From IMG/VR virus record IMGVR_UViG_3300028399_000009, positions 1 to 53,572 of that record: a stretch of 53,572 bases of DNA; one strand, given 5' to 3'. The notes under the pieces were generated by a model. The model searched no databases and was not told where the DNA came from. It saw only the letters and a program-made list of their open reading frames with translations. Made by a program: the position numbers and the translations under genes. Origin of the DNA: a virus. The stretch's first letter is position 1. The number at the start of each line of letters is the position of its first letter. Positions 2,348 to 49,715 of the stretch are shown here, piece after piece.

Positions 2348-2362
2348 TTGTCTATTTACATC

Positions 2363-34984: not shown

Positions 34985-35679
34985 ATGTAAACCTCCCATT
35001 TATATTCATCATTTTGTCTTATTAATCTTGCTAATGTTGTATATTTAGGAAATTTTCTGCTTCTATAAACAAAAATATCAGTTATGGTTTTTTGATTATT
35101 TTGAAAGATATTAAAAGTCATAATGCATTCTTTAAAAAAATACAACATTTTATCTCCCATAGGAGGACAATCAAGAAATTTATATTGTCTATTCCAGCCT
35201 TTAGGTTGATATACAATATAATCTGTTTTTCCTAATTCAGATGTTGGTTGATTTATTATAAAGAAGTAAATCTTTTTCTTAGCTGATAAAATTTTAAATT
35301 TATAAGCTAAAGATTGCATATTCAAAAGTATATTTCCTCTACCTTGTAAATTCATAGTTGCAAATTCTCCGAGCACAGGTAAACCTATACTATCAAGTAT
35401 AACCCAATTATAATCATTAGTTTCTAAATCATCAATTAAATAAAAAAGTTCTTCAAATATAGGAGTATAAATATATTTAACACCAATTTTATTAAATTCA
35501 TCAATTATTTCATTAGTAAGATTTTTTTCTGTGTCTATATATAAAACTTTTTTTTCTTCTTTTGTAAGTTCTTTTGCTATTTGTGTTGCAATATAACTTT
35601 TTTGAGTTCCACTTCCTCCAAATAATTCAATAAGATCAGGAGACCCTAATAAATTTGTAAACAATTGATATAATCTCAT
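34981..35679 (-). CDS. RecA/RadB-like recombinase
   Basis: A 232-residue ATPase of the RecA/RadA superfamily. Walker A is ELFGGSGTQKS, the next strand VLYIDTEKN is typical of RecA-like cores, Walker B is WVILDSIGLP, and FFIINQPTSE corresponds to the DNA-contact/sensor strand. It lacks extra N- or C-terminal domains, like archaeal RadB and short phage UvsX-like proteins. It lies downstream of a homing endonuclease gene with ATGA coupling. It should pair DNA during recombination-dependent replication. Confidence 0.82.
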   Translation of the reverse strand: MRLYQLFTNLLGSPDLIELFGGSGTQKSYIATQIAKELTKEEKKVLYIDTEKNLTNEIIDEFNKIGVKYIYTPIFEELFYLIDDLETNDYNWVILDSIGLPVLGEFATMNLQGRGNILLNMQSLAYKFKILSAKKKIYFFIINQPTSELGKTDYIVYQPKGWNRQYKFLDCPPMGDKMLYFFKECIMTFNIFQNNQKTITDIFVYRSRKFPKYTTLARLIRQNDEYKWEVYI

Positions 35680-36515
35680 ACTTTCACCTCCTTTTCTTTT
35701 CTATATAAATGTTTTAATAGTTTTTCAAAATTATTTTTCTTTCTTTCAATAAATAAAAATGAAGGTGAAGAATAAATCCACTTATAAAATTTTAATATAT
35801 TTTCTCTATTTGTAAAAGAAATTTTATAACATTCTTTTTTCACTTTATATATATTAGGATATAAATTATTATTAATAAAAATATTATAAATATCATCTAC
35901 AAAAGATTTTGAACAATTAAAAATACTACAATCAAAAGAATATTTCCATGTTTTTTCTTTCAAATAAATTCCAACACATCCATCGCCATCAAACACTCCT
36001 CTTATAAAATCAGCTTGATATTCTTTTGGTATTGGTTTTTTAAGTTTTAAAATTCTTGATTTATTAGGTATTATACCATAATCAATTAACCAATCTCTAA
36101 AATATAAATTATTTATAATTAATTTCCATGATTCTAAATCATTCCTTTTTTTAGAAAAATAGCATTTCCCCTGAAAAACAATATCAATTTTATTTAAAAT
36201 CTTAATTTCTTTTTGAACTATACTTACTGTTTTTCTTTTCTTATGAACACAACCATCTGTTGCAATAAAACCAACAATATACCAAAAATCATGGGGGTTT
36301 TTTCTTATTATATTATTTAATTCTTCTTTTGATTCTTCATATCCTAAATAACATTTTTTATATTTTAAACCTAATTTTCTCAAATTTGTTCTTATGCTAT
36401 GTTGTGTTCTATTTAATATTAATGCTAATTCACTAATAGTAAATTTATATGAATTTTCCTTTAACCACATTATTTCATCCAAAGTCCATTTTTTCCATGT
36501 TTTCTTCTTTTTCAT
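35676..36515 (-). CDS. LAGLIDADG homing endonuclease
   Basis: A 279-residue free-standing endonuclease. Two LAGLIDADG-type helices are visible: WYIVGFIATDGCV (about residue 78) and DFIRGVFDGDGCV (about 188). An N-terminal helix-turn-helix-like segment (TLDEIMWLKENSYKFTISELALILNRTQHSIRTNLRKLG) probably adds DNA contact. The gene fits exactly between its neighbours with ATGA overlaps on both sides, so it uses the operon without breaking it. The target is likely in or near the adjoining RecA-like or SSB-like gene of a relative. Confidence 0.88.
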   Translation of the reverse strand: MKKKKTWKKWTLDEIMWLKENSYKFTISELALILNRTQHSIRTNLRKLGLKYKKCYLGYEESKEELNNIIRKNPHDFWYIVGFIATDGCVHKKRKTVSIVQKEIKILNKIDIVFQGKCYFSKKRNDLESWKLIINNLYFRDWLIDYGIIPNKSRILKLKKPIPKEYQADFIRGVFDGDGCVGIYLKEKTWKYSFDCSIFNCSKSFVDDIYNIFINNNLYPNIYKVKKECYKISFTNRENILKFYKWIYSSPSFLFIERKKNNFEKLLKHLYRKEKEVKV

Positions 36516-36982
36516 ATAACACTACCTCCTGTTAGCTTCTCAGGTGTAAATGATAAATACTGCATAATAACATCTTCATCTATTCTTAACTCTGGAGAGT
36601 TCTGAACTTTAAAAACATATTTCCTCCTATTATCATCAAGCTGTATAACATTTGTGAGTATTATTCTTACCCCATGTAGTATTTTACCTCTCCTTTCTAA
36701 TGCTTCCAGTTTAATCCTCAAATCAGCAGGTATTGAGAAGGCTAAACATGGTGGTTCGTCTTCATTATAAGGAGGTTGTTTAAGCAGTAATCCCAGAATT
36801 TTACCATTTTTAGTTTTTCTTATCCCAATATAATAACCTTCAATCTCTTTATCTTTTTCCCAGTTAACATATTCCCACTCTTTTCTATACTGTTGTTGAC
36901 TATTATTTTCTTCTTCAACTGTTATTTCTTCCCACTTAGCATTATCCCACACATGATTTTTCCTTATTCTCTTTTTAGCCAT
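36512..36982 (-). CDS. Possible single-stranded DNA-binding protein
   Basis: A 156-residue protein. After a basic, low-complexity start (MAKKRIRKNHVWDN) comes EGYYIGIRKTKNGKILGLLLKQP, AFSIPADLRIKLEAL and LHGVRIILTNVIQLDDNRRKYVFKVQ, a strand order compatible with an OB fold. The place at the head of the recombination genes supports an SSB role, but no motif proves it. ATG 36982 is chosen because AGGAGGTGTTTCATA precedes it. Confidence 0.5.
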   Translation of the reverse strand: MAKKRIRKNHVWDNAKWEEITVEEENNSQQQYRKEWEYVNWEKDKEIEGYYIGIRKTKNGKILGLLLKQPPYNEDEPPCLAFSIPADLRIKLEALERRGKILHGVRIILTNVIQLDDNRRKYVFKVQNSPELRIDEDVIMQYLSFTPEKLTGGSVI

Positions 36983-37409
36983 TATGAAACACCTCCTTTT
37001 CAAGTTTTTCTACAATATTTAAATACCAATCAAAATCTATAACATAATCATTATTTTCATATTCATAATCAATAATTTTTCTTTCAACTTTTTTATAGTA
37101 TTCTGAATATATATAAAAACATTCTTTATTATCCCTGTTCTTTTTATATTCACATCCATCACAAAATTCTTCTCTGGGATATTTCTGCTTTAAACAAAAA
37201 GGAGAAACTTCTGGAGGAATATTTGCAATTATAAACATAAAAAGATTTCTATTTATTTTATCCCAAATTCTCTTACAATCATCTTCAGACCAATTTATAA
37301 TACAATTTTTATCTTTTTCATTAAAATAATCTTCCTTTTTTACACCTGCTTTTTCCAATTCTTTTGCCTGCTCTTCCATAAACCTTATTAACAGAGTTTT
37401 ATACATCAT
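36975..37409 (-). CDS. Cys-cluster protein, first gene of minus operon
   Basis: About 144 residues. The middle holds FCLKQKYPREEFCDGCEYKKNRDNKEC, i.e. C-x8-C-x2-C-x9-C, which could bind zinc or an iron-sulfur cluster. It is preceded by WSEDDCKRIWDKINRNLFMFIIANIPP. The start is doubtful: the -10 box is at 37420-37425, so ATG 37409 or 37406 would be almost leaderless; ATG 37418 would lie upstream of the likely RNA start. A later ATG (MEEQAKELEK) with AAGG is possible. Function unknown. Confidence 0.6.
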   Translation of the reverse strand: MMYKTLLIRFMEEQAKELEKAGVKKEDYFNEKDKNCIINWSEDDCKRIWDKINRNLFMFIIANIPPEVSPFCLKQKYPREEFCDGCEYKKNRDNKECFYIYSEYYKKVERKIIDYEYENNDYVIDFDWYLNIVEKLEKEVFHNG

Positions 37410-37419
37410 GGTGATCATA

Positions 37420-37474
37420 ACTATAATACCTGCTTCCAGAATTGTCAATAAGACTTTCTTATACTTGTTATAAG
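37420..37474 (-). promoter_or_regulatory. Minus-operon promoter with palindromic operator
   Basis: On the minus strand TTGACA (37448-37443) and TATAGT (37425-37420) are 17 bp apart. Nine bp upstream of the -35 box lies CTTATA-N5-TATAAG (37458-37474), the same palindrome at the same distance as at 38396 and 42033. It should drive the whole leftward operon. Confidence 0.8.
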
Positions 37475-37479
37475 TATGG

Positions 37480-37497
37480 CTTATATTAGCTTATAAG
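37480..37497 (+). promoter_or_regulatory. Second operator-like palindrome in divergent region
   Basis: CTTATA-N6-TATAAG, one base wider than the four other copies, in the intergenic region between the divergent operons. No TTGACA is found 9 bp downstream, so the promoter for the exonuclease gene at 37532 is not clear. The site may act with the neighbouring operator at 37458. Confidence 0.5.
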
Positions 37498-37531
37498 TAT
37501 ATGCTAAAATGTGTAAAGGAGGTTAACAGTT

Positions 37532-38389
37532 ATGATACTTATTGATGGTAATACCCTACTATTCAAAAACTTTCATCTTCACACAACTAAAAACATCTAT
37601 AATGTTAATAATCCTACATTAGTGGGTTTTCTAAGATCTATAAACAAATATAAAAAACTTTATAATGTTAAAAATGAAAATATTATAATAACATTTGATA
37701 AAGGTAAATCTAAATACAGGAAAAGATTATTAAAAACTTATAAACAACAAAGGGTAAAAGATAGGAAAAAGAATAATTTTAATTGGGATTTATATGTTAA
37801 ACATTTTAATGATATTATTAATGTTATTAAATATTTATATAAGATTATAATTATTAATAACTATGAAGGTGATGATATTATAGCATATTATACTATTAAT
37901 AATAATAATAATCATGATATTATAATTATTAGTAATGATAAAGATTTATTACAATTATTATATAATGATAATATTATATTTCATAATATATATAATAATA
38001 ATATTATAACATGTTATAATTATAAATATTATACAAATTATGATAATTATAATCATTATTTAATGTTTAAAATATTAAATGGTGATAAATCTGATAATAT
38101 TAATAAGATTAATAATAATAATGATATAAATATTATAATCAGAAAATATGATAATATAGATAATTATTTAAAATTTTTAAAAGATGTTAACATTAATGAA
38201 TATTATAAGGTTAAACTTAATAGAATGCTAATGGATTTATATTATTTTCAGAATAAATTTGGTAAATATTTAAGACAGAAAATCACAAAAGAAGAAAATA
38301 AATTTAAATATAACCCCCATGAGGCTATAAAAAATTATATGCAGGTAAATGGTGTAAAACATATTAACACTCTTGAGGAACTATTATAA
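37532..38389 (+). CDS. 5'-3' exonuclease (FEN/PolI N-terminal type)
   Basis: A 285-residue nuclease that removes RNA primers and flaps. Motifs: MILIDGNTLLF (first Asp), IITFDKGKSKYRKRLLKTYK, NYEGDDIIAYY (acidic cluster), IIIISNDKDLLQLL, and LNGDKSDNI (H2TH region). The middle is remarkably Asn-rich (NNNNNHDIII, YNNNIITCYNYKYY), a result of very AT-rich codons. AAGGAGGTTAACAGTT precedes the ATG. First gene of the rightward replication operon. Confidence 0.88.
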   Translation: MILIDGNTLLFKNFHLHTTKNIYNVNNPTLVGFLRSINKYKKLYNVKNENIIITFDKGKSKYRKRLLKTYKQQRVKDRKKNNFNWDLYVKHFNDIINVIKYLYKIIIINNYEGDDIIAYYTINNNNNHDIIIISNDKDLLQLLYNDNIIFHNIYNNNIITCYNYKYYTNYDNYNHYLMFKILNGDKSDNINKINNNNDINIIIRKYDNIDNYLKFLKDVNINEYYKVKLNRMLMDLYYFQNKFGKYLRQKITKEENKFKYNPHEAIKNYMQVNGVKHINTLEELL

Positions 38390-38395
38390 GCTGTG

Positions 38396-38449
38396 CTTAT
38401 ACCTGCTATAAGAAAAACTTATTGACAAATTTGAACATGGTATTATAGT
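38396..38449 (+). promoter_or_regulatory. Operator plus promoter for 38483 operon
   Basis: CTTATA-N5-TATAAG at 38396-38412, a 9-bp gap, TTGACA at 38422-38427, a 16-bp spacer and TATAGT at 38444-38449. The -10 context (GGTATTATAGT) is identical to that of the minus-strand promoter at 37420. Confidence 0.82.
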
Positions 38450-38482
38450 GTTATGTAATGCTGTGGAGAAAGGAGGTGTGTG

Positions 38483-38683
38483 ATGTTTGTAAAAATTGAT
38501 AAGTTAATTCTAAACCTTAATAATATTGTCAGTATGAAAATTGATCATGATAAAATTTATGTTAGAACAGTTAACTCTCCATATGAAGATTATGATTTGA
38601 TTGTAAAATTTAAAGATGAAGATGAACTGAAAAGTTTTGTAAATAGGCTTTTAAATGATTTTAACATCTATGTCTTTAAATAA
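38483..38683 (+). CDS. Small protein, member of three-gene family (66 aa)
   Basis: 66 residues: FVKIDKLILNLNNIVSMKIDHDKIYV, DLIVKFKDEDELKSFVNRLLND. The strand-turn-strand-helix layout is that of the minus-strand proteins at 33199 and 33487. ATG 38483 follows AAAGGAGGTGTGTG. It heads an operon led by the palindromic operator. Confidence 0.65.
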   Translation: MFVKIDKLILNLNNIVSMKIDHDKIYVRTVNSPYEDYDLIVKFKDEDELKSFVNRLLNDFNIYVFK

Positions 38684-38700
38684 TTTGAGGAGGTATGATT

Positions 38701-39327
38701 ATGAAAGATATTAAAGAAAGATTAGTGGAACATTTTTATATTCAGGATAATCTTAATAGGTTTTTAGTAGGTGAGAATTGGAAAGAAGAAATACCATCAT
38801 ATAAAATTCTATCAGCTATTTTATCTGAAATAGGTGAACTTATAGATTCAACAGGATTTAAATGGTGGACTAAACAGGAAATAAATATGGATAACATAAA
38901 AGTTGAAATTGTTGATATATGGCATTTTCTCTTATCATGGTTTCTAAAGCATAATAAGGATGAGAAATGGGTTATAGAGGGTATAGTAGATAATATGATC
39001 AAAATGCATGAGGATACACTAATTTATAATGCTTACCTTGGTGTTAATAAGTTTGAGGTTCTTATAGATGATCTGATTGAGTTTATTTACTGGCTGAAAA
39101 AGGAAGATAAAAACTATATGTTTGAAGCCTTTGATTCTTTTTCCACAATAATAGCAGATATGGATATACCCCTTGATGAGTTTGATGAATTATATAGGAA
39201 AAAAGTTGAAATTAATAAACAGAGAAAAAAGAGAGGTTATGATAAAGACAGTAGTAAAAAATATGTTAATGGTAAGGAAGATAATGAACTTCTATTTAAA
39301 CAATTGAAACTTTTTAAGGAGGTGTAA
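38701..39327 (+). CDS. Dimeric dUTPase (MazG-like fold)
   Basis: Converts dUTP to dUMP, keeping uracil out of phage DNA and supplying the ThyX substrate. The 208-residue protein shows the all-alpha dUTPase signature: ILSEIGELIDSTGFKWW, then IKVEIVDIWHFLLSWFL, with the ExxE and ExxD metal-binding residues and the KWW motif. The C-terminal half (EVLIDDLIEFIYWLKKED onward) completes the fold. ATG 38701 is favoured over 38695 by distance from GAGGAGGT. Confidence 0.82.
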   Translation: MKDIKERLVEHFYIQDNLNRFLVGENWKEEIPSYKILSAILSEIGELIDSTGFKWWTKQEINMDNIKVEIVDIWHFLLSWFLKHNKDEKWVIEGIVDNMIKMHEDTLIYNAYLGVNKFEVLIDDLIEFIYWLKKEDKNYMFEAFDSFSTIIADMDIPLDEFDELYRKKVEINKQRKKRGYDKDSSKKYVNGKEDNELLFKQLKLFKEV

Positions 39328-39328
39328 G

Positions 39329-39727
39329 ATGTCAAACAAGATTTACATGGTGTATTTTACAAGAGGAGAAATTGAGAGGATACTTACAAAGGCTAATATT
39401 GTATTGAACCCCAAAGGTGTTAAACTTAAGAAGGCTAATCTTATTAAACTGCTGATGGATTATGTTATTAATCACAACAAAGATGTTTTGCTCAGTTATG
39501 AGGAACTTAATGTTATACTTTCACAAGGTAGAGATGATAGACTTATTCTTCCCAGAATTGAACCATATAAATCACTAATAAGCAAACTTATTGAGATATA
39601 CAGACAGAAATATGGTGAATACTTTTTGATAGCCAACAGGAAGATTGGTTATACTAATGCTTTGAGAATTGCTGTTTATGAATTTCTGAAGCTTATAGGT
39701 GAGGAGGTAATAGATCATGGGGATTAA
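39329..39727 (+). CDS. Hypothetical protein (132 aa)
   Basis: Unrecognised basic helical protein (LNPKGVKLKKANLIKLLMDYVINHN; SLISKLIEIYRQKYGEYFLI; TNALRIAVYEFLKLIGEEV). It might bind nucleic acid, but no motif is clear. Strong AAGGAGGTGTAAG site. Overlaps the next gene by 11 nt. Confidence 0.6.
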   Translation: MSNKIYMVYFTRGEIERILTKANIVLNPKGVKLKKANLIKLLMDYVINHNKDVLLSYEELNVILSQGRDDRLILPRIEPYKSLISKLIEIYRQKYGEYFLIANRKIGYTNALRIAVYEFLKLIGEEVIDHGD

Positions 39728-39938
39728 GGAAGATGAGCTTCTTTGTTTATCATGTGCAAGATGGAGAGATTGTGAATTCCATAAAACAAATTTGGGAGAG
39801 GTAGTAAGTAAAGATGATCTCAGGATATTCATAAGGTTAGTAGAGCAAGAATATAAATATGTTAAAAATTTTGTTTTATTTTCTGTTCATGATAATATAC
39901 ATTTATCTGCTGTTGAATGTGAAAGATGGAGATGGTAG
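39717..39938 (+). CDS. Small Cys-rich protein, family A (73 aa)
   Basis: Four Cys in CLSCARWRDCE near the start and VECERWRW at the end: C-x2-C-x5-C ... C, a likely zinc site. The protein at 43577 has the same frame (CCNCKKFNNCE ... ADCDRFEE), so they are paralogues. GAGGAGGTAATAGATC precedes the ATG. Function unknown. Confidence 0.65.
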   Translation: MGIKEDELLCLSCARWRDCEFHKTNLGEVVSKDDLRIFIRLVEQEYKYVKNFVLFSVHDNIHLSAVECERWRW

Positions 39939-39953
39939 TAAAGGAGGTTAATT

Positions 39954-40163
39954 ATGCTGGAAAATAATGCTAAAAATATTCTAATGGATATTCTTATAAT
40001 TATTTTGTTTATACTTTTTATATTTCTTACACCATTTGCCTTTTTCTGGAGTATAAATGTTCTGTTTGATTATCATATTGATTACAACATAAAAACAGGT
40101 TTAGCATTCTGGCTTTTATATTTAGTTATAAAGGGCATGATGAAGATGGAGGTTAAAATTTGA
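39954..40163 (+). CDS. Small membrane protein, two helices (69 aa)
   Basis: Two hydrophobic segments (ILIIILFILFIFLTPFAFFW and GLAFWLLYLVIKGMM) separated by DYHIDYN. It overlaps the exported transglycosylase gene by 4 nt, so the two probably act together at the envelope. It could be a second holin-like protein or an exclusion factor. Confidence 0.65.
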   Translation: MLENNAKNILMDILIIILFILFIFLTPFAFFWSINVLFDYHIDYNIKTGLAFWLLYLVIKGMMKMEVKI

Positions 40164-40702
40164 TTACAGCAATATTGTTAAGTTTATTTCTGGCAGGTGT
40201 AATTAATGTTGAACAATTTAAAACAGGACAAAAAATTGTTAATGCTATAAATAGTGTTAATTATGATGAAGCTGTTAATGATATTTGTTATGCCAATAAT
40301 GATCTGTGCAATATTGTAAGGGGTTATAAAAATGATTTTAGGAAATGGTATAAACAGATGCTCTTCAGTATTGCTTATGCTGAAAGTAAATTCAAATATA
40401 ATGAAGGTTTATATGATAAAGATGATATAGGTTATTTTCAAATTAATACTAAAATATGGACAAAAGAAAAAGCTAAAAAATATTTAAATTTTGATTATTA
40501 TGATGAAACTATACTTAAGTATGATATAAATTTACAGGCTAATATGGCTTTGAGGATACTGTTATATAATATTGCAGTTAAAATTAGACAACATGGCAGG
40601 CAAAAATCAATATATAAATATACCCTGTTGTATCATAAGCTAAACCATCATGTTATACCTGAAAGCTATAAAAATGATATTAAGAAAATATTGTGGAGGT
40701 AA
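40160..40702 (+). CDS. Exported lytic transglycosylase
   Basis: A 180-residue protein with a short signal-like start (ITAILLSLFLAGVINV) at TTG 40160, GGAGG 8 nt upstream. The enzyme core has FSIAYAESKFKYNEG with the catalytic Glu and IGYFQINTKIW, the soluble lytic transglycosylase pattern. Unlike the lysozyme at 30072 it lies in the replication region, so it is unlikely to be the main lysin. A role in local wall opening or superinfection control is inference. Confidence 0.75.
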   Translation: MITAILLSLFLAGVINVEQFKTGQKIVNAINSVNYDEAVNDICYANNDLCNIVRGYKNDFRKWYKQMLFSIAYAESKFKYNEGLYDKDDIGYFQINTKIWTKEKAKKYLNFDYYDETILKYDINLQANMALRILLYNIAVKIRQHGRQKSIYKYTLLYHKLNHHVIPESYKNDIKKILWR

Positions 40703-40707
40703 TAAGT

Positions 40708-40935
40708 ATGGCAATAACATTTCAGAAAGGTGAATATGAGTATAATATTGAAAAAAGAAAGGAAAATTGGTATCAAATATCTATTATAAAAAATCATTAT
40801 GTTTTATGTGTTTTTGATTATTTTATTAAAAATAATAAACCTAAAATAAAATGTTATCCACAGCAAGCAAAATTAATAAGTGAACATATAAGTTCTATAC
40901 AGAAATATATAGAATTTTTAGATGGAGGTAAATAA
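40708..40935 (+). CDS. Hypothetical protein (75 aa)
   Basis: Unrecognised: MAITFQKGEYEYNIEKRKEN, WYQISIIKNHYVLCVFDYF, and a C-terminal helix. ATG 40708 follows GTGGAGGTAATAAGT inside the previous gene's end. Function unknown. Confidence 0.55.
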   Translation: MAITFQKGEYEYNIEKRKENWYQISIIKNHYVLCVFDYFIKNNKPKIKCYPQQAKLISEHISSIQKYIEFLDGGK

Positions 40936-40936
40936 A

Positions 40937-41188
40937 ATGGATGATAAAATAATTATGACCTGCATGGGTTGTAAGTATTTTGTAATTATAAGAAATAATA
41001 GGGAGAAGTATATGTATTGTAAAAATGATAAAAGATGGCAAGATTTATATGGTTATTATAAGGATGGAGGTTTAATCTATCTTGTTGAATATAATTTCTT
41101 AGGTGCTAAAGAATATGAAAAAATAAAAGATAAGAAATTTGATGAAAATTGTAAGTATAAGGAGGTTATTAATAATGGGAGAAAGTAA
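40937..41188 (+). CDS. Small Cys-rich protein (83 aa)
   Basis: CMGCKYFVIIRNNREKYMYC gives C-x2-C-x15-C, with a fourth Cys near the end (ENCKYKEV). Likely a small zinc-binding protein. ATG 40937 is fixed by GATGGAGGTAAATAAA. It overlaps the kinase gene by 14 nt. Confidence 0.6.
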   Translation: MDDKIIMTCMGCKYFVIIRNNREKYMYCKNDKRWQDLYGYYKDGGLIYLVEYNFLGAKEYEKIKDKKFDENCKYKEVINNGRK

Positions 41189-41825
41189 TATTATAGTTTT
41201 GACAGGTTTTCTTTGTAATGGTAAAACATCTATGTTATATGCACTAAAAACAATATTATCATCAAGATTCCAGAATAAAAAGATAATTGTTGTTGATGAA
41301 CCTGTTAGATTTTTACTTGAGGATATAGAAGAATTTATGGATGATGTTATTATACCTAAAAGAGATTTTGATTTTTATCACAGACAGGCTTCATTTATGG
41401 CAACATCATTAGCACAATTTGAGATAATCAGAAGTTTTTTATTTAATAATAATTACATAGTTATTTGTGATAGATGTTTCATAGATCCTTTTGTATATAC
41501 TTATCTTAATTACCCTGATGATATATTTACTGAAAAGAGAGATAAACTGTTAAACTTGTTAGGCTTATATAATATTGAGCTGTCATTTGATTTCCAATTT
41601 TATTATCTGAAATTACCTGAAAATGATAATGTTTTACAGAAATGTTTTAATGATGACACAAGAAGAGCAACTGTAAATTTTGATGATGTTAGATCTAAAG
41701 AAGGGGAATTTTATAATAAATACTGTAAATTTGTGGAGAAGAAACTTGATAAATATACTCATCCTGCTGATAATAGTTATGTTGTTTATGAAATTGCTGA
41801 TGAAATTATAGAGAGGTTAAGCTAA
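41175..41825 (+). CDS. Nucleotide kinase-like protein
   Basis: A 216-residue P-loop protein. Walker A is IVLTGFLCNGKTSML, a later VICDRCFIDPFVYTYL matches the DRxxxDxxxY motif of thymidylate and deoxynucleoside monophosphate kinases, and VVDEPVRFLL fits the DEP strand. Given ThyX, dUTPase and dCMP deaminase nearby, phosphorylating dTMP or another dNMP is likely. ATG 41175 has AAGGAGGTTATTAAT upstream. Confidence 0.72.
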   Translation: MGESNIIVLTGFLCNGKTSMLYALKTILSSRFQNKKIIVVDEPVRFLLEDIEEFMDDVIIPKRDFDFYHRQASFMATSLAQFEIIRSFLFNNNYIVICDRCFIDPFVYTYLNYPDDIFTEKRDKLLNLLGLYNIELSFDFQFYYLKLPENDNVLQKCFNDDTRRATVNFDDVRSKEGEFYNKYCKFVEKKLDKYTHPADNSYVVYEIADEIIERLS

Positions 41826-41826
41826 T

Positions 41827-42039
41827 ATGGTTAATATTCTGGGTTATTTTGCTTTATTTTTACTTGTTATTGCTTATATATTACTACAATTTGATTATAT
41901 TATGTTTTTAATAATTAATATTTATGCCACATGTTGTTTTATAGTTTATTCATATTTGATAAAAAGCTATCCATTTTTATATGCTAATATTCTAATATTA
42001 CTAATCCTTATATTACAGCTATATAAGGTGAGCTTATAA
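41827..42039 (+). CDS. Small membrane protein, three hydrophobic segments
   Basis: 70 residues, nearly all hydrophobic: LGYFALFLLVIAYILLQFDY, MFLIINIYATCCFIVYSYLI, YANILILLILILQLY. This recalls small integral membrane proteins of the CBU_0592-like type, but similarity is weak. The 3' end overlaps the operator at 42033. Confidence 0.6.
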   Translation: MVNILGYFALFLLVIAYILLQFDYIMFLIINIYATCCFIVYSYLIKSYPFLYANILILLILILQLYKVSL

Positions 42040-42086
42040 TGGGTATAAGAAAGATTTATTGACATTTGAGAATTAAGGATTATACT
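42033..42086 (+). promoter_or_regulatory. Operator plus promoter for ParB-like gene
   Basis: CTTATA-N5-TATAAG at 42033-42049, a 9-bp gap, TTGACA at 42059-42064, a 16-bp spacer and TATACT at 42081-42086. The leader ends in AGGAGGTGCAGGT before ATG 42118. Confidence 0.85.
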
Positions 42087-42117
42087 ATTGCAATAACATC
42101 AGGTAGGAGGTGCAGGT

Positions 42118-42897
42118 ATGAAGTATAAGGAGGAGAAGAAAGAGTATGAAATTAACATTAAACTTTTAAATGTTCATGATATTGTAATCCCACATATCCA
42201 GAGGGCACTTAGTAATAACCTTGTAAGTAAGCTCATGATGTCAATAGAAAAGGTAGGATTCATAACTCCAGTAGTGGTAGTAGAAAGTGATAATAAGGGT
42301 GAATATGAGGTAATAGATGGACAGCACAGACTTGAAGCATGTAAGCTGTTAGGATATACAAAAATACCTGCTGTAATAGTTCCAAGAGAGATAAAGCAGT
42401 ATATAATAACCCTTAATACAGAAAAGGCAAGTAATCTCAAAGATAAGGCTCATCAGGCATATGAGATTTATATGCAGGCTTATAACTTATTTGGTGATGA
42501 ATGGACAGAGGGAGATCTTGAACTGATGGTTGAACAGCCTTACTATCTCACAATAGGTTTCATAATAGAAAGATTTGAGGAAAGAAGGTTTAGTGGATTT
42601 GCATGGGAAAATGTATTAAAGAAAATTGATAATTTTTATGTTGTTAATCCTATAAAACAAACAGATAAACAGAGAGAAGAGAGAGCTAAATTACTGATAG
42701 AGGCTAATAAAGTTCTGAATGAGAAATTTAGTGAACTTGCAGTAGATAATCATTTCCTTAAGAATGAGATTGTTAATAAAGTCTGGCAGAGTATATATGG
42801 TAAAAGAGTTAGAACAATAGAAGATAATTATGAAATAGCACTAAGTAAGATAACCGAAGGCATTAGGAGTTTTAGTTTTGAGGAGGTAAGAGTGTGA
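42118..42897 (+). CDS. ParB-like nuclease-domain protein
   Basis: A 259-residue protein with a ParB/Srx N-terminal domain: IEKVGFITPVVVVESDNKG, then YEVIDGQHRLEACKLLGYTKIPAV, with the IDGQHR motif. The C-terminal region is helical, without an evident helix-turn-helix. It leads an operon behind the palindromic operator, so it could be the DNA-binding regulator itself; this is inference. Related phage proteins act in DNA binding or nuclease functions. Confidence 0.8.
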   Translation: MKYKEEKKEYEINIKLLNVHDIVIPHIQRALSNNLVSKLMMSIEKVGFITPVVVVESDNKGEYEVIDGQHRLEACKLLGYTKIPAVIVPREIKQYIITLNTEKASNLKDKAHQAYEIYMQAYNLFGDEWTEGDLELMVEQPYYLTIGFIIERFEERRFSGFAWENVLKKIDNFYVVNPIKQTDKQREERAKLLIEANKVLNEKFSELAVDNHFLKNEIVNKVWQSIYGKRVRTIEDNYEIALSKITEGIRSFSFEEVRV

Positions 42898-43166
42898 AGT
42901 GTAGATGTGGTAATACATTTTTTGAAAAATATGAAAATGTAAAAATAAAAAGGGAATTTGTGAAAATTATTAATTTGGCTGATGTAAAAGAGGGTGAACA
43001 CTATGAAATGGATGCTTCCTTAATAGAAGAAGTATATACTGAAGAAATTTTTAGATGTATGAAGTGTAAAAATGAATATTTATATAAAAGTTATAAAAAA
43101 TATTTTGAACCTGATCCTTCAGGAAAAACTCTTTTTCAATTACCTGAATTAAAGGAGGATAAATGA
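42894..43166 (+). CDS. Zinc-ribbon protein (90 aa)
   Basis: MKCRCGNTFFEKYEN at the start and FRCMKCKNEYLYK later give two CxC/CxxC knuckles of a zinc ribbon with about 48 residues between. GTG start at 42894, preceded by GAGGAGGTAAGAGT. Ends DP-rich and acidic. Could bind nucleic acid or act as a transcription factor, not shown. Confidence 0.65.
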   Translation: MKCRCGNTFFEKYENVKIKREFVKIINLADVKEGEHYEMDASLIEEVYTEEIFRCMKCKNEYLYKSYKKYFEPDPSGKTLFQLPELKEDK

Positions 43167-43573
43167 TGAAGGAAATTAAGTTTAGAATATGGAATGGAAA
43201 AGAATGGTTACAAGATGATCATGAATTAGCTAAATATGTAATAGATAGGGAAGGAAAAGTATTTTTTATAACAAAATATAAATTTGAAGATGTTGTTTTA
43301 CCTTATGAAGATAAAGTTGAAATTAATCTTTATACAGGGATGAAAGACAATAAGGGACAAGACATTTATGAAGGAGACATTATAAAATTTGTTCCTGCAT
43401 TTTCTATAAGGGAAAAATATAACCTTTCTCATAAAGACATAATTGGTAAAGTGTATTGGTCTGCTGGAGCATTTAGAGTAAAAGCAGGGGATCTGGTTAT
43501 AGAATTGGCAGATTGTTTACATAAAAAAGTTATAGGGAATATTTATGAAAATCCTGAATTACTGGAGGTATAA
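43166..43573 (+). CDS. YopX-family protein, second copy
   Basis: About 135 residues: KEIKFRIWNGKEWLQDD, then INLYTGMKDNKGQDIYEGDIIKF and KKVIGNIYENPELLEV, clear YopX family marks. It is more typical than the copy at 34619. ATG 43166 is 7 nt from AAGGAGG; ATG 43163 is also possible. Function unknown in the family. Confidence 0.88.
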   Translation: MKEIKFRIWNGKEWLQDDHELAKYVIDREGKVFFITKYKFEDVVLPYEDKVEINLYTGMKDNKGQDIYEGDIIKFVPAFSIREKYNLSHKDIIGKVYWSAGAFRVKAGDLVIELADCLHKKVIGNIYENPELLEV

Positions 43574-43576
43574 ATA

Positions 43577-43798
43577 ATGTTTCATATATGTTGTAATTGT
43601 AAGAAATTTAATAATTGTGAAATAAATAATATCCAACTTATATTTTTTGAAGATGAGTATAATTTAATAAACATAAATATGGAAAAAATAAATAAATTGA
43701 AGTTTATAAAAGATTATATTATTTTTGATTTTGGTGGGGGTATAAGTTTAGATATTGCTGATTGTGATAGATTTGAGGAGGTAAATAATGAAAATTAA
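43577..43798 (+). CDS. Small Cys-rich protein, family A (73 aa)
   Basis: ICCNCKKFNNCEINN and IADCDRFEEV match the layout of the protein at 39717 (C-x2-C-x5-C, and a final C before DR/ER-F/W). Probably zinc-binding. Ends by overlapping the ThyX start by 11 nt. Function unknown. Confidence 0.6.
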   Translation: MFHICCNCKKFNNCEINNIQLIFFEDEYNLININMEKINKLKFIKDYIIFDFGGGISLDIADCDRFEEVNNEN

Positions 43799-44522
43799 AC
43801 TTCTTCAATATTCTCCAATATCTATGGCTATAATTGGAGCAAGAGTTTGTTATGATAGTTTTGAAAATAGCGATAGTAAAGTAATAACAGAAAATAATGT
43901 TAATTATTATGAAAATATTGCTTTAAAAGAAATATATTCAAAAAATCTAAATAATTTTAAAGAAGAAAATGAATTTACAATTTTATATGATGAAATAATA
44001 GGTGAAAATGATAAAAAACTTATAGGAAGGTTAATTAATAGTGGGCATCATAGTATATTGGAACATATTTATTATACATTTTATATATCAGGCATATCAA
44101 GATTAAGCCATGTTCAACTTATTCGTCATAGAATAGCAAGTTATTCAGTTCAATCTACAAGGTATGTATTGAAAAAGATATTAAAAAATATAAAAACAAT
44201 AAAAGATGTTGATAAGTATTTTGTTTTTTCTCCTAATATACCTGTTGAATTCCAGAGGGAAGAAGCATATAAAAGGGTAATGGTTTTAAAACAGCTGAAG
44301 GATAATTATGGTAATGATGATCTAAAATATTTACTGCCTGAAAATCTTAAAACTGAACTTGTGATGAGTATGAATTGCAGGGAACTTAGACATTTTCTTA
44401 AACTTAGACTTGATAGGAGAGCACATTTTGAGATAAGAGAACTGGCTAAAAATATTTATAGTGTTTTACCTGATGATCATAAAAGGATTTTATTTTTTGA
44501 TATAAATGTAGAGGAGGTATAA
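43788..44522 (+). CDS. thyX: Flavin-dependent thymidylate synthase ThyX
   Basis: Makes dTMP from dUMP using FAD, NADPH and methylene-tetrahydrofolate. The 244-residue protein has the ThyX signature RHRIASYSVQSTR, together with NSGHHSILEH upstream and LRHFLKLRLDRRAHFEIRELA downstream (substrate-binding Arg). Strong GAGGAGGTAAATA site. Forms a thymidylate pathway with the dUTPase (38701) and dCMP deaminase (44981). Confidence 0.95.
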   Translation: MKIKLLQYSPISMAIIGARVCYDSFENSDSKVITENNVNYYENIALKEIYSKNLNNFKEENEFTILYDEIIGENDKKLIGRLINSGHHSILEHIYYTFYISGISRLSHVQLIRHRIASYSVQSTRYVLKKILKNIKTIKDVDKYFVFSPNIPVEFQREEAYKRVMVLKQLKDNYGNDDLKYLLPENLKTELVMSMNCRELRHFLKLRLDRRAHFEIRELAKNIYSVLPDDHKRILFFDINVEEV

Positions 44523-44525
44523 ATT

Positions 44526-44747
44526 ATGAATTGGAAACAAAAAATAAAATGTAAATTGGGGTTTCATTTTTGGTATAAATATAAAAAAGAAAAAGCTAAA
44601 ACAAATTTATTTTTTCCTAAATATTTTTATAGAGCTGTATATAAATGTTGGTATTGTGAAAAAATTAAGTATGATTATAGTATAACTTTATTTGTTCCTA
44701 AAAATCCTGATAAATTTAATTGGGAGGCTGATGAAGATGAAAATTGA
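44526..44747 (+). CDS. Small basic CxxC protein (73 aa)
   Basis: Very basic start (KQKIKCKLGFHFWYKYKKEKAK), then YKCWYCEKIK with a CxxC. Resembles small phage zinc proteins with a C-x-LGFHxW start. The other possible ligands are C9 and H13. Strong GAGGAGGTATAAATT site. Function unknown. Confidence 0.55.
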   Translation: MNWKQKIKCKLGFHFWYKYKKEKAKTNLFFPKYFYRAVYKCWYCEKIKYDYSITLFVPKNPDKFNWEADEDEN

Positions 44748-44988
44748 TTGGATTAAAGAATATGAAGAATATTTAAATATTGGTAAAAAATTAAATAAAA
44801 GGTATTTATATATACTTTTTAATCAACATGAAGGTGAATTTATAATATCATATAATCCTTTTTTAACATTTAAATATATTGTAGCAGGTATTATCAATCT
44901 AAAAAATGATAAGGAAATAATGTTTTATAATTTTAGTTTTGATAATGCTGATATTGTTTTTGATTATGAAGGAATAAATAATGAGTAG
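44737..44988 (+). CDS. Hypothetical protein (83 aa)
   Basis: MKIDWIKEYEEYLNIGKKLN, followed by strands (LYILFNQHEGEFIISY, YIVAGIINLK). Unrecognised. ATG 44737 is preferred with GGGAGG 9 nt upstream; ATG 44731 is also in frame. Overlaps the dCMP deaminase by 8 nt. Confidence 0.55.
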   Translation: MKIDWIKEYEEYLNIGKKLNKRYLYILFNQHEGEFIISYNPFLTFKYIVAGIINLKNDKEIMFYNFSFDNADIVFDYEGINNE

Positions 44989-45409
44989 TAAATGGGATAA
45001 ATTTTTTATTGATACTGTTATTAATGTTGCTAAACTATCCACATGTTATAAATATCAGGTTGGCTGTCTGATTGTTAAGGATAAGAGGATTATTTCAATT
45101 GGTTATAATGGGACACCTTCAGGATGGGAGCACTGTATTAATAATAAAGATCTACATTCTAAATATGAGATACATGCTGAAATGAATGCTATTGGTTTTG
45201 CTGTTAGAAATGGTATATCAACAATAGGATCAGAAATGTATTTAACCCATTTACCATGTTTTAGCTGTGCAAAATTAATAGTAGCTTCAGGTATAACAAA
45301 AGTTATTTATATAGATGATTATGAAGATTGGACTGTAAAAGATAATACAATTAGCTTTTTAAATGTAAATAATGTGGAGGTGATTAAATATGAAAAAGTT
45401 GTATTTTAA
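44981..45409 (+). CDS. dCMP deaminase
   Basis: Converts dCMP to dUMP for ThyX. The 142-residue protein has the zinc site HAEMNAIGFAV and LPCFSCAKLIVASGI (HAE, PCxxC), and SIGYNGTPSGWEHC, the substrate loop of dCMP deaminases of ComEB/T4 type. Clear and of normal length. Confidence 0.92.
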   Translation: MSSKWDKFFIDTVINVAKLSTCYKYQVGCLIVKDKRIISIGYNGTPSGWEHCINNKDLHSKYEIHAEMNAIGFAVRNGISTIGSEMYLTHLPCFSCAKLIVASGITKVIYIDDYEDWTVKDNTISFLNVNNVEVIKYEKVVF

Positions 45410-45773
45410 AGGGAAAAAGGATAATAAAAATAATGAAATAAGTAAATTTATACAAGATGTAAGATACTCTATAATGTATAAAACAATATATGATATACAT
45501 ATTCTAAGAGCAATACAGTTGTTAGTAACAGTTGAAATAAAAAAATATTATAATACATCATTAAATAAATCTGTTTTTGTAAGTATTCTTAATAACTATT
45601 TATTTAAATTTTTTGATAATGTTTATGTTTGTTTTGAAAAAGAAAAACATAGTGGAGAAATACATGTAGTAGTAAAATTTGAAGATACTTATATATGGGA
45701 AAATCCAAAAGAATATATTTTATTTACTTTTCCTGAAAATGATATTTCAAAATGGGAGCCTTATCCGATATGA
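45390..45773 (+). CDS. Hypothetical protein (127 aa)
   Basis: Not recognised. Basic N-terminus (MKKLYFKGKKDNKNNE), helical middle (IYDIHILRAIQLLVTVEIKKYY), strand end (GEIHVVVKFEDTYIW). GTGGAGGTGATTAAAT precedes the ATG inside the deaminase gene. Stands just before DNA polymerase, so a replication accessory role is possible. Confidence 0.55.
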   Translation: MKKLYFKGKKDNKNNEISKFIQDVRYSIMYKTIYDIHILRAIQLLVTVEIKKYYNTSLNKSVFVSILNNYLFKFFDNVYVCFEKEKHSGEIHVVVKFEDTYIWENPKEYILFTFPENDISKWEPYPI

Positions 45774-45794
45774 AGGAAAGGAGAAATTTAGGAA

Positions 45795-47678
45795 ATGGAA
45801 ACATGGAAACCTAAAAGGAATGTAATTAGCTGGAATAAGATCAGAAAGCTATATATGGATATTGAAACATCAGGGTTGAATGTTGATAAGGATAGGATTT
45901 ATTTTATAGGTCTATTTGATGGTTATAACTATATGTTTATTTATGATGAAAATGAGAAAAAGATTTTATTGAGATTTTTGAATATACTGGGGAATATACA
46001 ACCTGATTTTCTAATAGGTCATAACATATTTTCATTTGATTTACCATTTATTATTAAAAAATGTGAAAAATATAACATAAATATACAGGATTATTTCTGG
46101 ATAAAAAAGGAAGAAAAGAGAGTGCCTTCAACAGATATGGGAGGTAAACCTTTAACTATTACAGATATAAGGAGTAAATATTATCAGATATTAGACACTA
46201 TGGTAGCAGTAGCAAGGTGGGATTTTATAAACAGGAAATTACCATCATATAACCTTAAGGATAGTGTGATAGAGTTAGGTTTAAGGGAAAAGGAAAGGGT
46301 TGAACTTAGTAATCCTCAAATTGTAGAAGCATGGAAAAACAGGAATTATGATCTGATAATGGAATATCTGAGATATGACCTTGTTGATACATATAAGCTG
46401 TCTGAATATTTACATCCATTAGATTACTATCAGCTTAATTATTTACCATCATGGGTTACTCCTCAAATGATATGTCTGATGGGTAATGCAAGTAAATGGG
46501 AAGCTATACTTGAAGATTATTATCTGAATGAGAAGGGATGGAAAAATCTACCTGAGCCTGATGAGAAAGTCAGATTTGAAGGCGCTATTGTAGAGGCTTA
46601 TGAGGGGTTGTATAAAAATGTTGGCAAGGTTGATGTTGCCTCCCTATATCCTAACATTATGCTCAGATACAATATACACTCAGAGAAGGATGAAGATAGG
46701 TATCAGCTAAGAGTTTTAAGATATTTGACATCTGAAAGGTTGAAATTAAAAACATTAGCTAAGCAGGGAAATAAACAGGCAGATCTTAAACAGAATGCTA
46801 TGAAGGTGCTGATTAATAGTGCTTATGGTTTTCTTGGAACTGCTAATATACCCTTTAATGATATGCAGTCTGCTCAGATGGTTACTAAAAAAGGTCAGGA
46901 GATATTAACTATAATGAAGGAAAGTATAGTTGAAAAAGGTGGAATTTTATGTGAACTTGATACTGATGGTCTTATATTTGCTGGAAATGATGAAGAACAT
47001 ATAAAAAGTATTTACAGTTATGTTCAATTCAGAATGCCTGAAGGTTTTGAGGTTGAACTTGAGTTTACTGCTGATGCCTGCTATGTTGCCAATAAAAAGA
47101 ATTATGTTGTTTTCATTAATATTAATGATGAAAAAACTTGGATATATAAGGGGACAAAATTTAGAGGTAGAGATAAGAGTATGATTGAAAAAGATTTTCC
47201 TATAAAATATGTATGGTATTATGCTAAATATGGTATTGATGAAGCTGAAAAATTTTATAAAAATATTTTTAATAAGATAAAAAATAAGGAAATAGATATT
47301 AATTATTTGATAAAGGAAAGAAGGATAAGAAAGGGAGAGAAACAGTTAAGATCAATAGGTAATGAGGGTGATAAGGTTAAATATCTGAAACTACAGGGGG
47401 GTAATTATGGTATTGACAGTAATTATGATGTTGATTATTATTTAGGAATGCTAAGGAAAATGAAAGCTGAAATAAATAAAAACCTTGGAATAGAACAGTA
47501 TATACCCAGTCATTTTTATAAATTTCTGGAATACTGTAAAAATCACAACAAAGATGTGGAATATAGAATATATGCCAATTTTTGCAGGAAGTTTAATATA
47601 GACAGTAGTGAAAAACTGTTAAAGGAAGAATTTGAGAACATCATGAGGAGATTAAGGGATGAGAGGCAGAAGGTTTGA
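45795..47678 (+). CDS. polB: Family B DNA polymerase with 3'-5' exonuclease
   Basis: A 627-residue replicative polymerase. Exonuclease: LYMDIETSGLN (Exo I, D22/E24), LIGHNIFSFDLPF (Exo II), YLRYDLVDTYKLSEY (Exo III). Polymerase: motif A VDVASLYPNIML, motif B QNAMKVLINSAYGFLG, motif C CELDTDGLIF. At 627 residues it is shorter than cellular PolB (~780), with a reduced N-terminal domain. It works with the primase-helicase on the minus strand. The 3' end overlaps the flavoprotein-like gene by 20 nt. Confidence 0.95.
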   Translation: METWKPKRNVISWNKIRKLYMDIETSGLNVDKDRIYFIGLFDGYNYMFIYDENEKKILLRFLNILGNIQPDFLIGHNIFSFDLPFIIKKCEKYNINIQDYFWIKKEEKRVPSTDMGGKPLTITDIRSKYYQILDTMVAVARWDFINRKLPSYNLKDSVIELGLREKERVELSNPQIVEAWKNRNYDLIMEYLRYDLVDTYKLSEYLHPLDYYQLNYLPSWVTPQMICLMGNASKWEAILEDYYLNEKGWKNLPEPDEKVRFEGAIVEAYEGLYKNVGKVDVASLYPNIMLRYNIHSEKDEDRYQLRVLRYLTSERLKLKTLAKQGNKQADLKQNAMKVLINSAYGFLGTANIPFNDMQSAQMVTKKGQEILTIMKESIVEKGGILCELDTDGLIFAGNDEEHIKSIYSYVQFRMPEGFEVELEFTADACYVANKKNYVVFININDEKTWIYKGTKFRGRDKSMIEKDFPIKYVWYYAKYGIDEAEKFYKNIFNKIKNKEIDINYLIKERRIRKGEKQLRSIGNEGDKVKYLKLQGGNYGIDSNYDVDYYLGMLRKMKAEINKNLGIEQYIPSHFYKFLEYCKNHNKDVEYRIYANFCRKFNIDSSEKLLKEEFENIMRRLRDERQKV

Positions 47679-48594
47679 GATAGAAGTTAAGTATGCTGTC
47701 ATAGGTAGAAATATATATTCCTATCTGCTTTACAAGATGTTAGGTAAAAATTGTATAGTTATTAATAATAAACAGCCTGTATATGCCTATTCTTATGATT
47801 ACATAATATACCCAACATACCACGTAAGTAAGTTTTTTGATTACTATATGATTGATTACAGAGAGTATAAGCTAACAATAGGATCTGTTAACAGGTTTCC
47901 AAATAAAGAGTATTTACAACATAAGCTTAAAGACTGTAATATACATATACCTGATATACCCTCTGATCCTTTTACTGTTAACTGTATATTACCTTATGAT
48001 ATTTTTAGTAAATACTATATTGATGATGAGATTGAGAAGATAAAAATTCTAACTAATCATTTTCATGTTTATTTAAAAAATAATAAAAATGTTATAAGAT
48101 GTGAGAAGATTTTAAATACATTACCATTAATAGAATTTCTCAAATTAATACCTGAATTAAAACATTTATTAAGGGGTATAAGATATTCAACAACAAGTAA
48201 GCTGACATTTATAGCTATGGATCTGAGGGAGATTGTGCAGAAAACTAAATATGATCTGAACTTTGATTTTAACAGCTATAATTATGATTGTTATAGGAAA
48301 GCAGGTAATATTGTTCTGGGTGAATGTATAGCTCGTCATATTAAACAGATGGATAAAAGATTTAATGAGAATGAAATAATTGAACATGAAAAATATTTCC
48401 TTTTTAATCCTGAACTGAATAAAAAAACTGTTATTAAAAATATTTATAATATTGGCAGATATGCTCAAGTAGTTAATAATTATTCCCTTGATGATTTTAT
48501 TATTGATGTCAGTAAGTTTGAAGATGATGATGTTTATTCCACAGGGTTATTTGATGATAATGAAGGAGATGACAGCTATGACAAAATTAATTAA
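47659..48594 (+). CDS. FAD oxidoreductase-like protein beside polB
   Basis: A 311-residue protein with the frame of an FAD-dependent amine-oxidase-like or UDP-galactopyranose-mutase-like fold. The N-terminal strand-helix-strand is YAVIGRNIYSYLLYKMLGKNCIVIN, but the usual GxGxxG is altered to GRNIYS. IRCEKILNTLPLIEFLKLIP matches the inner dinucleotide-fold strand, and IYNIGRYAQVVNNYSLDDFI the C-terminal GRYxxW motif contacting FAD. Whether it still binds FAD is unclear. It overlaps polB by 20 nt and the exonuclease by 17 nt. Unusual in a replication cassette; function unknown. Confidence 0.55.
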   Translation: MRGRRFEIEVKYAVIGRNIYSYLLYKMLGKNCIVINNKQPVYAYSYDYIIYPTYHVSKFFDYYMIDYREYKLTIGSVNRFPNKEYLQHKLKDCNIHIPDIPSDPFTVNCILPYDIFSKYYIDDEIEKIKILTNHFHVYLKNNKNVIRCEKILNTLPLIEFLKLIPELKHLLRGIRYSTTSKLTFIAMDLREIVQKTKYDLNFDFNSYNYDCYRKAGNIVLGECIARHIKQMDKRFNENEIIEHEKYFLFNPELNKKTVIKNIYNIGRYAQVVNNYSLDDFIIDVSKFEDDDVYSTGLFDDNEGDDSYDKIN

Positions 48595-49297
48595 AGTCCA
48601 GATTAAAAAAGTTAAAGGTAATGTTGTTATAACTGATAAAAATGTTTATACCATTTCAAAATTTGCAAGACATATTCCTGAACTTAGAGAAGGATATGAA
48701 TATGAAGTTGAAGTAGATGATAAAAACTTTCTTTATACTGCAAAATTATTGAATGGTGATAAAAAAATAGATGGTTTAATAATAATAGATTTTGAGACAT
48801 CAGGAGTAGATGTAAATAAGCATTATCCCCTATCATTAGGTATGATCATAACAGATAATAATTTGCAGATTGAGAATGTTTACTATACCAAAATTTATGC
48901 TCCTCAACATGATTATGAAAGTGAGGCTTTAAATATTAATAACCTTAAAATAGAAGATGGTAAAAAGGTGGATACTGTTGTGGCTGAACTTAACAGTATT
49001 ATTGGAGATTGGAGAAAATACAGATTAGCAGGATGGAATATTTGTTTTGATTTTATGTTTCTAAAAAAAATGTTTAAAATGGCTGATAAGAAAATAAATG
49101 TTAATTATAATCTTGTTGACATTCAAACCCTTTTCAGTTTTTATTATTATAAACAGACAGGTATATGGAGTATTAAGAGTATGAGAGATGCTTATAAATT
49201 CTTATTTAAATCTGAACTTCCTCAATCTCATAATGCTATTGAAGATTGTTTATTTGAACTGAAAATTTTGAGATATATAATGCTGAACTTTAGCTGA
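48578..49297 (+). CDS. DnaQ-like 3'-5' exonuclease (DEDDh)
   Basis: A 239-residue protein. LIIIDFETSGVD is Exo I, LAGWNICFDFMFL is Exo II, and PQSHNAIEDC is Exo III with the DEDDh His. An N-terminal ~60-residue beta region precedes it (IKVQIKKVKGNVVITDKNVY). The polymerase already has an exonuclease domain, so this may act in repair, RNA removal or host DNA degradation. ATG 48578 is preferred, with GAAGGAG 11 nt upstream; the longer frame from 48488 lies inside the preceding gene. Confidence 0.85.
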   Translation: MTKLIKVQIKKVKGNVVITDKNVYTISKFARHIPELREGYEYEVEVDDKNFLYTAKLLNGDKKIDGLIIIDFETSGVDVNKHYPLSLGMIITDNNLQIENVYYTKIYAPQHDYESEALNINNLKIEDGKKVDTVVAELNSIIGDWRKYRLAGWNICFDFMFLKKMFKMADKKINVNYNLVDIQTLFSFYYYKQTGIWSIKSMRDAYKFLFKSELPQSHNAIEDCLFELKILRYIMLNFS

Positions 49298-49398
49298 ACT
49301 TAGAGAAAATTATTAATATTTCCATTTGGGATCATTTTATAAAACTTCTTATCACAAAATTGTTTTTTATCAGGTATTATAAATAATGAGATTGAAAT

Positions 49399-49413
49399 TG
49401 ATAATCATTATCA
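49399..49413. promoter_or_regulatory. Perfect 7-1-7 palindrome resembling a Fur box
   Basis: TGATAAT-C-ATTATCA exactly matches the 7-1-7 consensus described for Fur-type regulators. It lies 18 bp upstream of the operator at 49431 in the leader of the last early operon. In so AT-rich a genome such a match may arise by chance or serve another protein. Confidence 0.4.
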
Positions 49414-49430
49414 TTTAATTATAAGTTCAG

Positions 49431-49484
49431 CTTATACACACTATAAGAAAAAATATCTTGACAAAATATTGACAGAGATATAAG
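49431..49484 (+). promoter_or_regulatory. Operator plus promoter for 49521 operon
   Basis: CTTATA-N5-TATAAG at 49431-49447, a 10-bp gap, TTGACA at 49458-49463 and TATAAG at 49479-49484 (15-bp spacer). A second TTGACA at 49469 has no good partner. The leader ends with AAGGAGGTGCAGGC. Confidence 0.72.
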
Positions 49485-49520
49485 CTCAAGATGTGAAAAT
49501 TCTGATAAGGAGGTGCAGGC

Positions 49521-49715
49521 ATGCTGAAAAGAAGAGAAAACCTGAAGCGGTTACAGCAGTTGGAAAGACAGAGTAAGATAATATTTTTACAGGATGGGGA
49601 GGGGAGAGAGTTTGTATTTGATAAAGATAATAAAGATTTATATAGAATATACAAAATAAAAATAGAGAATAAGGGAGGGGAGCAAGTATATGTAGATCTA
49701 AGAAAAGTTAATTAG
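49521..49715 (+). CDS. Hypothetical basic protein (64 aa)
   Basis: LKRRENLKRLQQLERQSKIIFLQDGEGREF then a short strand region. Basic helix at the start, perhaps nucleic-acid binding. First gene of the last early operon, right after the palindromic operator. Function unknown. Confidence 0.6.
   Translation: MLKRRENLKRLQQLERQSKIIFLQDGEGREFVFDKDNKDLYRIYKIKIENKGGEQVYVDLRKVN

Follow-up and report, generated by a model that had tools for sequence, protein, structure and literature searches.

Phages are already known to co-opt regulators of their hosts, namely Spo0A, CtrA and PhoBR. An LTTR (LysR-type regulator) of the host, OxyR, controls the mom promoter of phage Mu, where it acts on one late modification gene in a methylation-dependent manner. 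In phages of Alphaproteobacteria, sites for CtrA are associated with 'lytic deferment', as proven by EMSA and reporters, and Spo0A sites at promoters of the virulent Bacillus phage phi29 allow Spo0A to suspend the phage cycle during sporulation (PMC9437464). The nucleotide-metabolism and replication genes of Synechococcus phage S-PM2d respond to the nutrient state of the host, several of them under the host regulator PhoBR (PMC10976474). LTTRs bind as tetramers to two sites, an RBS that lies near −65 and contains T-N11-A and an ABS that lies near −35 (PMC5603801), and a switch between RBS and ABS with effector has been described (PMC11739112). As of 2020 there was no isolated virus of the Aquificota; Thermocrinis Octopus Spring virus and its relatives are uncultivated tailed viruses of this phylum, with a family-A polymerase and genomes of around 37 kb, and the word 'promoter' is absent from the main text of the paper that describes them (PMC7689252).

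The DNA analysed here is the IMG/VR record IMGVR_UViG_3300028399_000009 at its full length of 53,572 bases (the window), which has a G+C content of 28.7% and near-identical ends (132 of 135 bases). A sequence-only reading had pointed to a palindrome, CTTATA-N5-TATAAG, upstream of four promoters, and exact copies are indeed present at 37458–37474, 38396–38412, 42033–42049 and 49431–49447. Every copy in the window stands at a promoter, and no further one, exact or with one mismatch, occurs elsewhere in it. Dinucleotide shuffles of the window give a mean of 0.04 exact copies and a maximum of 1; the four copies are real and beyond chance. The palindrome itself has nevertheless to be given up as the operator. 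When every 6-mer inverted repeat was listed, a second family, TATAAG-N5-CTTATA, emerged at the same four places and with half-sites in common, and an exact TATAAG lies 11 bp upstream (in promoter orientation) of each of the four copies. The unit is therefore TATAAG-N5-CTTATA-N5-TATAAG, which is found four times in the window and in none of 200 shuffles, and its pitch of 11 bp places all half-sites of an array on one face of the helix. In three of the four copies a degenerate fourth half-site (CTTATT, CTTATT and TTTATT) continues the array with unchanged spacing and extends into the TTGACA. We read the natural dyads as TATAAG-N5-CTTATA followed by TATAAG-N5-CTTATT, with CTTATA-N5-TATAAG as the junction between them.

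The promoters had been described as having TTGACA 9–10 bp downstream and a −10 box at 15–17 bp, and measurement agrees, with array-to-TTGACA distances of 9, 9, 9 and 10 bp and −10 spacers of 17, 16, 16 and 15 bp. When predicted starts are set 7 nt past the −10 box, at about 37413 (minus strand), 38456, 42093 and 49491, the first dyad is centred at −63, −63, −63 and −64 and the second at −41, −41, −41 and −42. All four copies contain T-N11-A, the sequence TATAAG-N5-CTTATA including ATAAG-N5-CTTAT. Judged from these spacings, the dyad positions fit the layout of an LTTR tetramer on RBS and ABS, and the combination of a stronger first dyad with a weaker second one likewise agrees with the RBS/ABS scheme.

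The leftward operator-promoter occupies 37420–37497 on the minus strand, with half-sites TATAAG (37480–37485), CTTATA (37469–37474), TATAAG (37458–37463) and degenerate CTTATT (37447–37452), TTGACA at 37448–37443 and a TATAGT that ends at 37420. A fifth half-site at 37492–37497, 12 bp further out, forms the wider N6 copy at 37480–37497 that had also been reported. The operon (36975–37448 onwards, minus strand) continues into the primase/helicase region; it also encodes a LAGLIDADG-like protein (35676–36515). The same array (37447–37485) possibly serves a rightward promoter at 37447–37510 on the plus strand, ahead of a 5'-3' exonuclease-like gene (37532–38389), with an extended −10, TGCTAAAAT, at 37502–37510, a poor −35 and, relative to the predicted start, dyads at about −62 and −40.

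The other three operator-promoters lie on the plus strand. That at 38385–38449 has half-sites TATAAG (38385), CTTATA (38396), TATAAG (38407) and degenerate CTTATT (38418), TTGACA at 38422–38427 and TATAGT to 38449, and precedes an operon, from 38480 onwards, of MazG-like and nucleotide-kinase-like genes. At 42022–42086, half-sites TATAAG (42022), CTTATA (42033), TATAAG (42044) and degenerate TTTATT (42055) lead into TTGACA (42059–42064) and TATACT to 42086; the operon, from 42118 onwards, encodes a ParB-like protein, ThyX, dCMP deaminase and DNA polymerase B. The last, at 49420–49484, consists of TATAAG (49420), CTTATA (49431) and TATAAG (49442), TTGACA at 49458–49463 with a second TTGACA at 49469, and a −10 TATAAG at about 49479–49484, and stands ahead of small genes from 49521 onwards. 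The presence of the exact array at all four promoters supports the earlier proposal of a shared regulatory unit that couples divergent operons.

Several further features lie around these sites. Directly upstream of the fourth array, at 49399–49413, is a perfect 7-1-7 palindrome, TGATAATCATTATCA, which resembles the Fur-box consensus. Downstream of the same array, bases 49494–49524 are identical at 31 of 31 positions to the glnA leader (after glnB) of an Aquificota genome (L253, 707–737), ribosome-binding site included, and may represent a host leader captured by the phage. A TATAAG-N6-CTTATA pair at 52243–52272, 7 bp upstream of a TTGACA at 52267, is not ranked high by the host matrix described below. 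Near the genome ends, at 28–72 (= 53467–53510) and 1254–1298, there is a second class of promoter, which has around 40 bp in common (ATATAAGAATATTAWTATATATTAA...TATTGACAA) and no array, and which may be an earlier or a later class.

The same array is found in the chromosomes of Aquificota. One genome that matched the two-half pattern with TTGACA, an Aquificota MAG, contained further arrays; single-copy two-half matches with TTGACA at five loci (L005, L006, L009, L011 and L012) had no third half-site and were taken as chance. With the four-half core ATAAG-N5-CTTAT-N7-ATAAG-N5-CTTAT as query (at most one mismatch) and the reversed pattern as control, matches were found in 18 of 136 Aquificota genomes (control 0). 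For Bacillota the figure was 3 of 398 genomes (control 0), and for Cyanobacteriota 2 of 292 (control 1). Fisher's test on 18/136 versus 5/690 gives p of about 5e-11, a value uncorrected for relatedness that overstates the evidence because genomes within one clade are not independent. Two positions recur for these arrays, one immediately upstream of an LTTR gene and the other next to a gene for a molybdopterin oxidoreductase; weaker copies are present in the vicinity of SoxY and a di-haem peroxidase.

Both an HTH_1 and a LysR_substrate domain are present in the LTTR, one example of which is encoded at L185, 1555–2466, and its closest named NCBIfam models, none of them over cut-off, include the selenium-metabolism LysR, CidR, YeiE and CbbR families. 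An LTTR match occurs in 105 of the 136 genomes. Among the 30 LTTR genes closest to the query, 24 have an array within 160 bp upstream (at most 3 mismatches in 20), a level reached by 1 of 3000 shuffled LTTR upstream sequences. At several loci (L169/L185, L176 and L182–L184) the LTTR gene is preceded by one for a low-molecular-weight phosphatase-like protein, and the array abuts the end of this preceding gene or overlaps it.

Among the 136 Aquificota genomes, 9 contain the phage layout, CTTAT-N7-ATAAG-N8..11-TTGACA (control 0), and in seven of these nine it forms the promoter for the small-subunit gene of a [NiFe]-hydrogenase. One of them (L254) reads TATAAGttttcCTTATAtacacTATAAGacttttttacTTGACA, in which all three half-sites of TATAAG-N5-CTTATA-N5-TATAAG are exact. 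These hydrogenase promoters (L254–L260) share with the phage the half-sites, the 11-bp pitch and the 10-bp distance to TTGACA. They differ in that each is a single chromosomal promoter with an unconserved fourth half-site, whereas the phage has four operon promoters, and the array-to-(−10) distance is some 1–2 bp shorter in the phage. A weight matrix built solely from Aquificota host sites places the phage arrays at the top of the window, together with overlapping reverse registers, with scores of 29.2 for the leftward array and 32.7 (the best in the window), 27.2 and 29.0 for those at 38385, 42022 and 49420. The next independent place in the window reaches 18.5 and the best in 200 shuffles 20.3. 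This test is nearly independent of the phage, although it was the phage sites that suggested which host patterns to search for.

Hot-spring Aquificota are most likely the hosts of this phage, at the level of phylum. Pointers that do not depend on the array are the lysis cassette and the ParB-like gene. The cassette (29274–30572, minus strand) comprises lysozyme, holin-like and two spanin-like genes and has syntenic counterparts in two Aquificota genomes, with identities of 68% over 164 amino acids for the lysozyme, 42% for the holin-like and 31% and 49% for the spanin-like proteins; among the best matches listed to annotated phages, the lysozyme reaches at most 56%. The ParB-like protein (42118–42897, plus strand) has 49–52% amino-acid identity to the product of a chromosomal Aquificota gene. 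No CRISPR spacer match was found among seven short matches checked: only one locus (L247) had a repeat cluster, with the match outside it, and another of the seven was the glnA leader. There is a single weak Aquificota match to the terminase, and the host is therefore placed only to phylum. The Aquificota loci read are mostly 37–53% GC as against 28.7% for the phage. A cyanobacterial host was considered, as PolB is like that of Nostoc phages (37%) and there is a Microcystis-phage-like contig, and was rejected because the array is not enriched in the 292 cyanobacterial genomes. A Firmicute host, to which the best terminase match (phiCD27, 31%) might point, was also set aside, the array being found in just 3 of 398 Bacillota genomes.

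The regulator is most likely a LysR-type protein of the host and not a product of the phage itself. Six-frame translation of the window gave no LTTR (HTH_1) at E ≤ 1, and the phage proteins scanned contained no clear regulator or helix-turn-helix family; weak MarR/FUR-like matches probably stem from the winged-helix-like C-terminus of an AAA protein (2348–3298). Our preferred explanation, which we consider probable, is that the arrays are putative binding sites of a host Aquificota LTTR tied to energy metabolism that governs the replication-region operons. The regulator itself is most likely the LTTR whose own gene bears the array; the phylum has several LTTRs, and the site could also be shared by paralogues. 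A tetramer would occupy dyad 1 (TATAAG-N5-CTTATA, −63/−64) as the regulatory binding site and also dyad 2 (TATAAG with the degenerate partner touching the −35, −41/−42) as the activation binding site. An effector signalling the right energetic state would bring it into contact with RNA polymerase at the sigma-70 promoters, and without that signal the four promoters would be held down. If read by the host LTTR, the arrays would thereby tie the divergent replication-region operons to the hydrogen/sulfur energy programme of the host. We infer the binding, its regulatory sign, the signal and the link to energy state, and to prefer activation to pure repression is guesswork.

A tentative sub-case of the same explanation, possible if not the one we lean to, keeps the binder and reverses the sign: the host LTTR would be purely a repressor, acting on promoters that are strong in its absence, and would restrain phage replication under poor energy much as Spo0A does with phi29. 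All four −35 boxes are perfect TTGACA and the −10 boxes are near-consensus, and the promoters may therefore be active without an activator, which leaves room for repression; moreover, the degenerate fourth half-site touches the −35, and at the LTTR gene itself little distance separates the array from the core promoter. On the other hand, positions of −63 and −41 for the dyads correspond to the layout with which LTTRs activate, and the hydrogenase promoters, which also have TTGACA, are arranged alike. Considerably less probable is that the arrays are bound by a repressor or activator from another family, encoded by the phage, with the likeness to the host sites due to coincidence or convergence. 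At lambda OR1 and OR2 a CI dimer pair binds 17-bp operators 22 bp apart; the array has two 17-bp dyads with the same separation, the second at −41/−42, which would suit an XRE/CI-like pair, and many phage ORFs have no family match. Against it stand the lack of a clear helix-turn-helix regulator in the scanned proteins and the fact that the host-only matrix picks exactly the phage sites. A lambda-like CI/Cro region in particular was rejected, since no repressor gene was found beside the arrays, in the scanned phage proteins or beside the arrays of related viral contigs.

The ParB-like protein had been put forward as the candidate regulator, and its gene does lie directly behind one copy of the array. 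It has ParB_N/GmrSD_N domains and no helix-turn-helix family match, however, and its Aquificota homologue sits between ordinary genes with no array around it in the loci read, such that we regard this role as highly improbable. Harder still to credit is a passive feature, whether UP-element-like A/T tracts or chance, read by no dedicated protein. The genome is 71% A+T and A-rich tracts lie 3' of every array, yet the C and G of the half-sites are invariant throughout, no shuffle of the 200 reproduced the array, and hosts with a higher GC content carry the element as well.

Arrays also occur in other viral contigs. The three-half array is present in 19 IMG/VR stretches, with several copies in some records and very few for the reversed control, and the four-half core in 49 stretches against 4 for the reversed pattern; many of the latter 49 belong to a single lineage as near-duplicates, with TTGAC 9–11 bp beyond the array. 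No protein similarity was detectable between the window and the loci with the four-half core. Close relatives of PolB and of the ParB-like protein were not found in IMG/VR, and the array is absent from 80 loci of distant PolB relatives. One or more separate phage lineages of 40–54% GC have the four-half array 9–11 bp upstream of a TTGAC promoter (L127, L128, L132, L133, L136, L138, L141, L146, L148, L150, L153–L155, L158, L159, L161–L163 and L167), and ThyX-like genes are present in two of the contigs read; phages may here have come to use LTTR sites independently. A 32-kb viral record (L117) has four arrays on one strand, at 1494, 2536, 3557 and 12857, and those read have promoter-like sequence with a weak −35 20 bp on, one helical turn further than in the window. 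In viral contigs of around 50% GC (L134, L137, L140, L142, L164 and L166), several arrays adjoin GTTACAAAATGTTACAAAA-like direct repeats, which recall the cyanobacterial RpaB HLR1 motif. It is conceivable, although we would not put it more strongly, that Aquificota phages and, independently, other phage lineages with four-half arrays some 10 bp upstream of TTGAC promoters have repeatedly brought their core operons under the control of LysR-type metabolic regulators of the host, with the host's energy status then acting directly on the lytic programme.

If the preferred reading is correct, the switch that chemolithoautotrophic bacteria of hot springs use for hydrogenase and related energy genes is read by their virus before it commits its replication genes, which would provide a testable tie between geochemistry (hydrogen and reduced sulfur) and viral replication. 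An LTTR that is conserved in Aquificota and so far uncharacterised would also gain a likely operator, and the matching of phage promoter motifs to host regulons offers a route to host assignment for uncultivated phages. Set beside the known systems, this phage resembles the CtrA phages in having high-scoring sites for a host regulator, detected with a host-derived matrix, at its promoters; CtrA is a cell-cycle response regulator backed by EMSA and reporters, whereas here the case is built from DNA sequence and concerns an LTTR linked to energy genes at core replication-region promoters. As in S-PM2d, nucleotide-metabolism and replication genes would be linked to host state, but PhoBR is a two-component system for phosphate, and LTTR-type sites in one layout at four operon promoters are found here. 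Promoter-associated sites for a host master regulator are common to phi29 and the present proposal, with Spo0A and an LTTR as the respective families. A host LTTR acting on a phage promoter is what Mu mom and OxyR exemplify, in that instance for one gene rather than four operons. Thermocrinis Octopus Spring virus, with its family-A polymerase and smaller genome, differs from this phage, which encodes a DNA polymerase B in 53,572 bases. New here are an LTTR as the proposed regulator, its connection to chemolithotrophic energy genes, the single layout at four replication-region operons and the phylum.
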